Assembly (NCBI GenBank): GCA_030608385.1
Contig: JAUWEG010000005.1
Coordinates: 1 to 47,917 of the forward strand
Reading direction: 5' to 3'
Source of the DNA: Candidatus Heimdallarchaeota archaeon
Lineage (GTDB): Archaea > Asgardarchaeota > Heimdallarchaeia > Heimdallarchaeales > Heimdallarchaeaceae
DNA: 47,917 nucleotides
Positions within the stretch are counted from its first letter, which is position 1, and each line of letters begins with the position of its first letter. Made by a program: the position numbers and the translations under genes. This document shows, piece by piece, positions 31,514 to 34,197 of the stretch. The notes beneath the pieces were generated by a model. That model made no database searches. It worked only from the letters and a program-made list of their open reading frames with translations, and was not told the DNA's origin.

Positions 31514-31640
31514 TTTGATCACAGCTCTGTACTTCTGTTAATCCTATTTTATTTTTTCCTAATAATTATAGTTTCAATTTGATAGGGTGAGTGATAAAAT
31601 ATATTATTCAAATTGCCATTCCAAGTAGGTTGTGAAAAAA

Positions 31641-31718
31641 AGATGAGAAGCTTTGAGAAAGGGAATTCTAGAGATCATGTCGGAAACAATACCACATAAA
31701 TAATACGAAAATAATGCA
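31641..31718 (+). repeat. PAP2 leader block, copy A
   Basis: 78-base block about 86% identical by hand alignment to copy B (32943-33019), including an identical stretch of 20 bases at its right end. It ends about 61 bases before the first PAP2 ATG, as copy B does before the second. In copy A the block is no longer part of an open frame with a start; a stop interrupts it. The rest of the 266-bp gap 31514-31779 shows a TATA-like TTTAATTATT near 31748, which would make the PAP2 mRNA leaderless. Confidence 0.75.
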
Positions 31719-31779
31719 TTATGTAGAAGAAAACTTATCACAAAAGGTTTAATTATTTCTGTAATCAAACTGTGCAATT

Positions 31780-32829
31780 ATGAAAAAACGAAACGTGATT
31801 GCTATTACTTTGATTTCTATAGGTGTTGCTCTTATTGTAGCAGCAATTACTATAGTATACAGTTTCAACCCTTTAACTCATAATAATCCTGTTGATGAAT
31901 CTCTAACAAATTTCTTCTATAACAATAGAAGTAAAGTATTTGGGGGGATTATGTACATCATTTCCTTTCTTGGAGATGCTTTAGTTTATATTGGGATTTT
32001 GCTTCTATTTTATTATCTATATGACAAAAAGAAGACTTACAGGGCAATGACATTGTTGGTGACATCTACAGTAATAAACGTTTCAACCAAAGCAGCATTT
32101 AACCTAGATAGACCAGAAACAAGTTTACAATATGGTCATAATCCAGAAGAAACATTGTTATCACCTGCTGATGAAGCTTCAACAGGAATACCAAGTGGTC
32201 ATACTCAGGTGAGTACGACTTTCTGGGGTTCTTTGATGATTTTTATTAAAAAATGGTGGATGGTTATAGTTGGATCTATTCTTGCATTTCTAATCGGTTT
32301 TTCCAGAATTGCTCTCAGAGTACATTGGTTTACGGATGTAATTATGGGACTTGGAATAGCATTAATAATCCTAGCAGTATACCTTCTTATCAAAGATCCA
32401 GTTGAGAACTTTATAGATTCTAGGACAACATTTGTTAAAATACTTCTTTGTATCGCAGTGTTCATTGTTTTCGCAATACCAGTAATTTTCCTCCAACACA
32501 ATAGAGTTGATAATGATTTTGAGCTTATCTCTAAATCTTTGAAACTGATAACCCTCTTCACAACAGTTTCTATATCCTATGCAATAGAAGGTAAATTAGT
32601 AAACTTTCATACAGATATTGACAAATGGTGGAAGTATCTTGTAAGAATCTTAATAGGTGCTGCTTTCTTTGCTGCTTTCTATTTCAGCTTATCTGAATTA
32701 TTTGGTTTAATAATTATCAATGTTGGATGGAATGGAATAGAATTGACACTTGATTTGATAAGATACGCAATTCTTGGTCCAGTAGTTATTCTTCTTGCTC
32801 CCTGGGTAATGATGAAATTAAAAATATAG
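31780..32829 (+). CDS. PAP2-family membrane phosphatase, copy 1
   Basis: 349 aa polytopic membrane protein, probably eight helices, starting with an N-terminal helix. The three phosphatase signatures are complete: K-x6-RP (KAAFNLDRP), PSGH (IPSGHTQ) and SR-x5-H-x3-D (SRIALRVHWFTD). Such enzymes remove phosphate from lipid phosphates or polyprenyl pyrophosphates, facing the outside of the membrane. The C-terminal 130 residues add further helices beyond the core. Roughly half identical to the next PAP2. Candidate substrates are a dolichyl-type carrier or a lipid precursor, which cannot be decided here. Confidence 0.92.
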   Translation: MKKRNVIAITLISIGVALIVAAITIVYSFNPLTHNNPVDESLTNFFYNNRSKVFGGIMYIISFLGDALVYIGILLLFYYLYDKKKTYRAMTLLVTSTVINVSTKAAFNLDRPETSLQYGHNPEETLLSPADEASTGIPSGHTQVSTTFWGSLMIFIKKWWMVIVGSILAFLIGFSRIALRVHWFTDVIMGLGIALIILAVYLLIKDPVENFIDSRTTFVKILLCIAVFIVFAIPVIFLQHNRVDNDFELISKSLKLITLFTTVSISYAIEGKLVNFHTDIDKWWKYLVRILIGAAFFAAFYFSLSELFGLIIINVGWNGIELTLDLIRYAILGPVVILLAPWVMMKLKI

Positions 32830-33015
32830 ATGAATTTAAGGAGAGCTTTCTTTAGTACAATACCTAAAACATGGGAATCAGTAGGGGCTGCAATGATAGT
32901 TGTGGCTGTTATAATCGTATCAATAAAAATAAAGAAAAAGGAAGATAGAAGCTTTGACAAAGGGGATTCTGGGGATAATGTCGGAAAAAACAACACGCAA
33001 ATAATACGAAAATAA
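32830..33015 (+). pseudogene. Small single-helix ORF or gene remnant between the PAP2 copies
   Basis: 61 codons beginning directly after the first PAP2 stop. The predicted product has one membrane helix (GAAMIVVAVIIVSI) followed by a lysine cluster and a polar tail. The tail lies in repeat copy B. The matching block in front of PAP2 copy 1 keeps part of the frame but lacks the helix and carries an earlier stop. Substitutions between the two blocks are mostly amino-acid-changing, so coding constraint looks weak. It may be a remnant of a duplication rather than a gene. Confidence 0.3.
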
Positions 33016-33019
33016 TGCA
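32943..33019 (+). repeat. PAP2 leader block, copy B
   Basis: Partner of copy A (31641-31718): about ten mismatches and one single-base gap over 77-78 bases. It lies about 58 bases before the second PAP2 ATG. A TATA-like CTTAAGTATTTC between the block and the ATG aligns with TTTAATTATTTC of copy 1. Confidence 0.75.
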
Positions 33020-33076
33020 CTGAGAAAAAACAAAGCTCAACAACCTTAAGTATTTCTTTGCTCTATTTTTACTATT

Positions 33077-34081
33077 ATGAAAACACGGAACTTAATTGCA
33101 ATTATAATGTCATCAGTAGGAGCAGCTCTCATAGTAGTTGCGTTGGTGCTTGTATACGCAAATGATCCTTTAAGAGGAGTAAGTTCTTTGGATTATAAAA
33201 TATCTGAGTTTTTCTTAAACAACAGTACAGGAACAGGTACTACAATAATGAAAATAGTTACTTTTTTGGGAAATGCAATTGTTTACCTAGCTATTTTAGT
33301 TATCTTATACTATGTATGGGATAAAAAGAAAGCATACAGAGCAATAGTAGCTCTTGTGACAACAAGAGTGGTAAATGCTTCTACAAAGGCTGCCTTTAAA
33401 TTACCTAGACCTGATGATACTTTTGGACACACAATAAAAGAAACAAGTTTTGGTTTGCCAAGCGGACACACTCAACTGAGCACTACTCTTTGGGGTGTAC
33501 TTTGTTCTTTTGTTGTTAAGTGGGGAATGTTAATAGTTTCAATTGCGTTACCACTTTTAATTGCCTTCTCTAGAATTTATCTTGCTGTGCACTGGTTTAC
33601 TGATGTTCTAATGGGATTCGGAATTGGGTTGATTATATTAGCAATATTCCTAGTTGTATTGAACCCAATAGAGAACTATTTTGAGAACAAATCTATAACA
33701 GTAAAAATCCTATGGAGCATTGCTGTTGGAATTGTATTTGCTATACCTATAGTGTTATTACATTATAAGATCCCAAGTACAGGCTTGGAATCAATGGTAG
33801 GTAATTTAAAGTACATTGCTATCTTTACAACAGCTTCTATATCATATGCAATCGAAGGCAAACTAGTTAATTTCGATAATAGAATTGAGAAATGGTGGAA
33901 AGGGATACTCAGAGTACTATTAGCTATTGTAGTCCTTGCAGGTGTTTACCTCTATGGTGAATTCTTTGATCCTGATCCATTAACAACTCTGAAGATGATA
34001 TTAGATTTAGTTATCTATGCACTGTTGGGACCAATATTTATTCTTTTACTACCTTGGATAATAAAGAAACTCAATTTATAA
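33077..34081 (+). CDS. PAP2-family membrane phosphatase, copy 2
   Basis: 334 aa, same architecture as copy 1 and clearly its tandem paralogue. Signatures are again complete: KAAFKLPRP, LPSGHTQ and SRIYLAVHWFTD. The loop between the first two motifs is shorter than in copy 1 (it lacks an NPEETLLSPADEAST-like segment), which may change substrate choice. It is probably leaderless and followed by a strong terminator. Confidence 0.92.
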   Translation: MKTRNLIAIIMSSVGAALIVVALVLVYANDPLRGVSSLDYKISEFFLNNSTGTGTTIMKIVTFLGNAIVYLAILVILYYVWDKKKAYRAIVALVTTRVVNASTKAAFKLPRPDDTFGHTIKETSFGLPSGHTQLSTTLWGVLCSFVVKWGMLIVSIALPLLIAFSRIYLAVHWFTDVLMGFGIGLIILAIFLVVLNPIENYFENKSITVKILWSIAVGIVFAIPIVLLHYKIPSTGLESMVGNLKYIAIFTTASISYAIEGKLVNFDNRIEKWWKGILRVLLAIVVLAGVYLYGEFFDPDPLTTLKMILDLVIYALLGPIFILLLPWIIKKLNL

Positions 34082-34083
34082 TC

Positions 34084-34110
34084 AGAGAATCTTTTCTCTT
34101 TTTTTCTTTA
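34084..34110 (+). terminator. Hairpin plus T-run terminator
   Basis: AGAGAA-TCTT-TTCTCT followed by seven T and a further CTTT, three bases after the second PAP2 stop. This is the clearest intrinsic-type terminator in the window. It separates PAP2 from rps7. Confidence 0.6.
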
Positions 34111-34197
34111 ACTATTACTACTTTAGTGTATTCTGTCTTTCAACATTAGATTTTTAAACGAAACTTGGCTTGCTAAATTAGTTGAAGAGGATTCAAA

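Follow-up and report, generated by a model that had tools for sequence, protein, structure and literature searches.

An 11-bp phased tandem array as a putative regulator site upstream of PAP2 phosphatase genes in a Heimdallarchaeota genus

Archaeal activators usually bind upstream of BRE (PMC5512572). EarA sites lie upstream of archaellin (fla/arl) promoters, as four 6-bp sites in Methanococcus and as one to three adjacent sites in the Thermococcales (PMC5512572, PMC10665913), and Ptr2-type archaeal activators bind multiple sequences upstream of BRE (PMC5512572). In PHO boxes, which are recognised by PhoB/OmpR-type regulators, 7-nt repeats are separated by a 4-nt spacer (PMC3131613). Few if any cis-regulatory elements have been described for Asgard archaea, whose genomes are almost all metagenome assemblies, and we found none in the literature that we searched. 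In the current study, we analysed a window, i.e. the whole stretch of 47,917 nucleotides from a Candidatus Heimdallarchaeota archaeon, in which each of two PAP2 genes is preceded by a copy of the same block. The features of the locus, in window coordinates, are as follows.

31644..31697, plus strand: block copy a, upstream 54 nt, with the islands AGAAGCT and TGTCGG (31678-31683); repeat search and alignment.
31698..31718, plus strand: block copy a core, two strong 11-bp units preceded by a degenerate third in-register unit (CAATACCACAT).
31742..31755, plus strand: presumed BRE/TATA of PAP2a (AAAAGG TTTAATTA), 32 nt before the ATG; sequence and 21-promoter alignment.
31780..32829, plus strand: PAP2a, membrane PAP2-superfamily phosphatase, 349 aa; Pfam PF01569, E=8.9e-19.
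32830..33015, plus strand: 61-aa ORF, a fossil EamA C-terminal end fused to the PAP2a 3' flank; HMM, genus search and flank comparison.
32945..32998, plus strand: block copy b, upstream 54 nt, with TGTCGG at 32979-32984; repeat search and alignment.
32999..33019, plus strand: block copy b core, 11-bp phased array as in copy a.
33045..33052, plus strand: presumed weak TATA of PAP2b (CTTAAGTA), 32 nt before the ATG; sequence and alignment.
33077..34081, plus strand: PAP2b, second PAP2-superfamily phosphatase, 334 aa; Pfam PF01569, E=1.9e-17.

The two copies of the block form a direct repeat (31646-31718 and 32947-33019) that is about 86% identical over about 74 nt without gaps, whereas PAP2a and PAP2b share 48% protein identity over 349 aa and 64% DNA identity. 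This bears out the initial annotation, which had described a block more alike than the genes that it precedes, placed at a similar distance upstream of each (copy a starts 134 nt and copy b 130 nt ahead of its gene) and containing an exact stretch; the latter comprises 21 nt at the 3' end of both copies. Identity between the copies is 100% in these last 21 nt (31698-31718 and 32999-33019; AAATAATACGAAAATAATGCA) and 79% in the first 54 nt, and the last 25 nt or so consist of a tandem array of 11-bp units (AAATAATACGN). The block is made of two layers, the 3' tandem array and a subclade-specific upstream part of 54 nt. A wide-spread dispersed repeat, which the initial annotation had named as evidence against selection, is not what the full block is; a search of its own genome returned two copies only, and a mobile or dispersed repeat was rejected as its identity. 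The core, in contrast, recurs as a motif dispersed over intergenic DNA. In G007, a match of 36 nt falls at the end of another gene (L009; protein tail LDKGESEDQVG) and was attributed to chance.

The upstream regions of the PAP2 genes of the genus (n=21 aligned) share one motif, C-x-x-x-A-x-TAATAC, with a second copy 11 bases on. In 21/21 readable PAP2 genes the array precedes BRE/TATA, 54-84 nt from the start codon, and TAATAC is invariant in all 21 intact promoters, at a near-constant distance from the ATG. In the same alignment a TATA-like box lies approximately 32 nt before the ATG, downstream of both copies of the motif, and since the spacing between TATA and ATG fits the rules for BRE and TATA in archaeal promoters (PMC7289017), we infer that the PAP2 mRNA is leaderless. 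With five lineages anchored on the core, ungapped identity was 0.62-0.86 at positions -70 to +20 from it and 0.25-0.44 on both sides of this interval. Most of the 21 genus members share the gene order short-chain dehydrogenase (SDR; reverse), PAP2, ribosomal protein S7 and L10e; most also keep the core alone, without the upstream 54-nt frame, and promoters of PAP2 genes that share just 47-60% identity within the genus retain it. Among genus members, TAATAC is altered solely in G011, where it reads TAATGC; there the PAP2 gene (L288 2001-3016) has been disrupted by stop codons and a frame change, whilst its flanks are intact. This change of the array alongside decay of the gene is suggestive of a natural loss case, of which it is a single instance. 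In a sister genus of the same family, G021 carries the array at PAP2 (25.6 bits), and this genome was outside the training set of the model described below; the array is absent from the PAP2 promoter of G022 and from all seven other-family PAP2 promoters examined.

When the 11-base unit was scored at every offset from the central TAATAC (45 sites), the top two peaks were those at +11 (z of 5.1) and at -11 (z of 2.7); taken separately, PAP2, queC and DUF1028 each have +11 as the top offset. Aligned in register, a site consists of two strong units flanked on one side or both by a degenerate one. The units read AAATAATACRN, in which TAATAC is the invariant part and R is often G, and some read ATACAT. 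Close to the core, the PAP2 blocks and the DUF1028 and pilin-like promoters also share the hexamer TGTCGG/CCGACA; it was noticed post hoc and carries less weight.

The layout of EarA sites is the nearest described, as short AT-rich, TACA-containing repeated units are found upstream of BRE/TATA in both, and the targets here include pilin-like genes. However, the unit AAATAATACGN recurs with a strict 11-bp period, unlike EarA, and the array does not conform to the EarA-type units TACATA or A(C/G)(C/G)TACA(T/C). In the window, the array stops some 20 nt short of BRE (31719 to about 31742), compared with nine nt for EarA in the Thermococcales, and its targets are several unrelated genes. Because unit sequence, period and distance differ, we do not claim that the array belongs with EarA sites. 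The PHO box likewise has direct repeats with an 11-bp period, but its CTGTCAT sequence is unrelated to the array, and the host here is an archaeon. The likeness to Ptr2-type activators is one of layout (a position upstream of BRE and several sites per promoter).

To cover sites beyond PAP2, we scanned 21 whole genomes with a sequence-only model trained on 16 PAP2 cores, with the 150 best candidates scored per genome and with rough E-values. These genomes are draft assemblies that include many close relatives, and the matches are not all independent. The model returned 94 listed matches at E up to 0.056, whereas a column-permuted control model gave none at E<=0.06 in the same 21 genomes. The 94 comprise 21 at PAP2; 12 in the DUF1028 promoters of 12 genomes (at 73-75 nt, one at 100, and in the opposite orientation); nine, in eight genomes, about 132 nt upstream of a pilin-like gene divergent from nrdJ; seven, in seven genomes, about 30 nt upstream of queC; two before a coiled-coil gene that precedes a second pilin-like gene; and the remaining 10 within coding sequence and 33 elsewhere. 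The ten coding matches, mostly from one family (VYYENNTKRIIDAK), were set aside as false positives. Gene names other than those checked against Pfam were read from sequence. In the genome of the window itself, the motif pattern had 28 matches and the reversed pattern eight. The array is shared by several promoters of one genome. By alignment of orthologues, most genus members have the queC and DUF1028 elements, also where the model gave no match, and the coiled-coil/pilin-like operon carries the array in 11/11 loci scanned, at a different place in one (G013). The array lies upstream of BRE/TATA at a constant distance in PAP2 and DUF1028 promoters (73-75 nt before the gene for the latter) and not at queC, where it abuts the start codon, as it does at a zinc-finger-like gene. 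Further sites were intergenic in 29 of the 31 inspected, and many recur between species, for instance at the zinc-finger-like gene, an enoyl-CoA hydratase gene, a DinB-like gene, the 3' side of uvrA and a convergent ZPR1/acetyl-CoA synthetase gap.

Several of these places merit description in their own right. The DUF1028 promoters (loci L217-L235) hold a highly conserved element of about 50 bp (TCCCGACAAAAAGCGAATTACNNNCGTATTATTNNCGTANGATT) across most of the genus. In the convergent gap, the array sits between the 3' ends of ZPR1 and ADP-forming acetyl-CoA synthetase-like genes (L061 1500; L360, L368, L374), a place with no obvious promoter; this gene order was seen in L061 and L360. Behind uvrA it follows the stop codon by about 30 nt (L188, L364, L373), and in G018 a ribbon-helix-helix-like regulator gene starts about 77 nt downstream of this array. 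The nrdJ-type ribonucleotide reductase gene beside the pilin-like gene (L156, minus-strand protein) contains an intein with a LAGLIDADG domain.

We propose that the block controls PAP2 from upstream, with the array as its functional heart and a putative regulator site, and give this reading a rough probability of 0.7. Selection on DNA through a shared regulator, as suggested in the initial annotation, is supported for the core by its fixed promoter position, its presence at unrelated genes, its 11-bp phasing, the empty permuted control and its decay only together with PAP2. The array is most likely a transcription-factor site. A DNA-binding protein with subunits on one face of the helix, one turn apart, would bind it, the units spaced by a helical turn allowing cooperative binding of the regulator, and the bound protein would help to recruit TBP/TFB at PAP2-like promoters; the identical protein would bind the copies ahead of several unrelated genes. 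At PAP2, DUF1028 and the coiled-coil operon, the array lies upstream of BRE, as an activator site would; at queC and the zinc-finger-like gene the sites abut the start codon, which would fit repression. The regulator may therefore both activate and repress. Some sites are outside classical activator positions (at start codons, behind uvrA and between convergent genes), so the array may have several roles or may bind a chromatin-type protein. An architectural or chromatin protein in place of a gene-specific regulator would account for the sites between convergent gene ends or after uvrA, and helical phasing would also suit a protein that bends DNA or forms filaments; the strong sites are few per genome, though, and stand at fixed distances from particular genes, which makes this alternative unlikely.

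Returning to a gene-specific regulator, we tentatively extend the proposal to a genus-wide Heimdallarchaeota regulon, for which we would give somewhat less than even odds. In it, a putative regulator polymerising on 11-bp phased repeats would tie together the membrane phosphatase, pilin-like surface proteins, queC, the DUF1028 protein, genes beside nrdJ and uvrA, and possibly its own gene. Candidates for the latter are the coiled-coil and zinc-finger-like genes, each of them bearing the array. The positional rules, the permuted control and the G011 loss case turn this into a concrete, testable regulon and provide a bait sequence for the regulator.

The initial annotation had also raised a small RNA, and this suggestion fares poorly. 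In favour of a structured small RNA or RNA leader, the block is ungapped over 75 nt in all lineages compared; however, RNAalifold on the block alignment gave a weak fold of -1.69 kcal/mol with a positive covariation term and supported no covarying base pairs, Rfam returned nothing at E<=1, the presumed TATA is downstream of the block, and the core occurs in the opposite orientation at DUF1028. We regard an RNA function as very unlikely.

The upstream 54 nt behave differently from the core. Between orthologues they are less conserved than the gene (68% against 83% for coding DNA between G000a and G019), and conservation within the block is strong only in the 21-nt core and in a few islands (AGAAGCT, TGTCGGAA). 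The reading frame of block copy b is the tail of the 61-aa ORF (32830..33015), and the corresponding residual frame is open in relatives, with one TAA in copy a. Its codon differences are mostly non-synonymous, as the initial annotation had noted (seven against two synonymous), and the variable columns are spread evenly over codon positions (9/7/9); for these reasons we take the block frame to be free of coding constraint. A conserved small protein or gene end, with the frame ending ...NTQIIRK, would be in keeping with a frame that is open in most copies, free of indels and continuous with an EamA-like last helix in G000b and G015b. The substitution pattern speaks against it, as do the stops inside G000a and G010, those not far upstream in the other copies, and the absence of the frame from most genus members, which retain just the core. 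A functional small protein is thus highly improbable.

An HMM made from the EamA proteins of the genus matched the first part of the 61-aa ORF to the last helix of these transporters (E=1.6e-6, against 0.059 for the best of 2000 shuffles), and the remnant was recovered independently by a genome search with the G007 EamA protein; the ORF (32830-33015) has no Pfam-A match at E<=1. In G007 (L054 4408-5421), an intact EamA transporter gene lies directly upstream of PAP2, and the window holds the remnant of such an arrangement. In G010 and G020, S7 directly follows PAP2a, whereas in G000 and G015 the EamA end, the block and PAP2b are found just behind the PAP2a stop. Plain tandem gene duplication was rejected on this comparison, and PAP2b probably arrived, together with the EamA end, as a divergent unit with its own promoter, not as a simple tandem copy; in the reverse history, the EamA end, block and PAP2b might have been lost from G010 and G020.

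The tree of the 78-nt block clusters the a and b copies of the G000/G015 group (98/97), against the PAP2 gene tree; a b-only block clade is rejected (AU p=0.02), a test that relies on 78 columns, and the same copies share GGGRATTCT, unlike other lineages. Because the block tree contradicts the gene tree, homogenisation or recombination appears to have contributed to the upstream 54 nt in the G000 lineage, besides partial constraint, and the gene conversion proposed in the initial annotation stands for this part and falls for the core. Recent gene conversion or recombination as the sole source of the likeness, without function, is quite unlikely, as it offers no account of the core held at divergent PAP2 genes and before unrelated genes, the recurrence of which refutes it for the core, nor of the core loss in the decayed G011 gene. 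Under a regulator site at the core, the upstream 54 nt would be an accessory, subclade-specific part, kept alike in the G000 lineage by recombination together with partial constraint, and copy b would continue the fossil EamA 3' end. Promoter DNA can thus stay alike while a divergent version replaces the gene behind it. When the window (31523-34197) is compared with L042, L044 and L030/L288, the SDR and S7 proteins are 96-99% identical and the gene between them differs, being PAP2a, PAP2a plus PAP2b, or a decayed third type about 64% identical to PAP2a (G011); by its sequence, the SDR-S7 locus looks like a site of repeated allele replacement.
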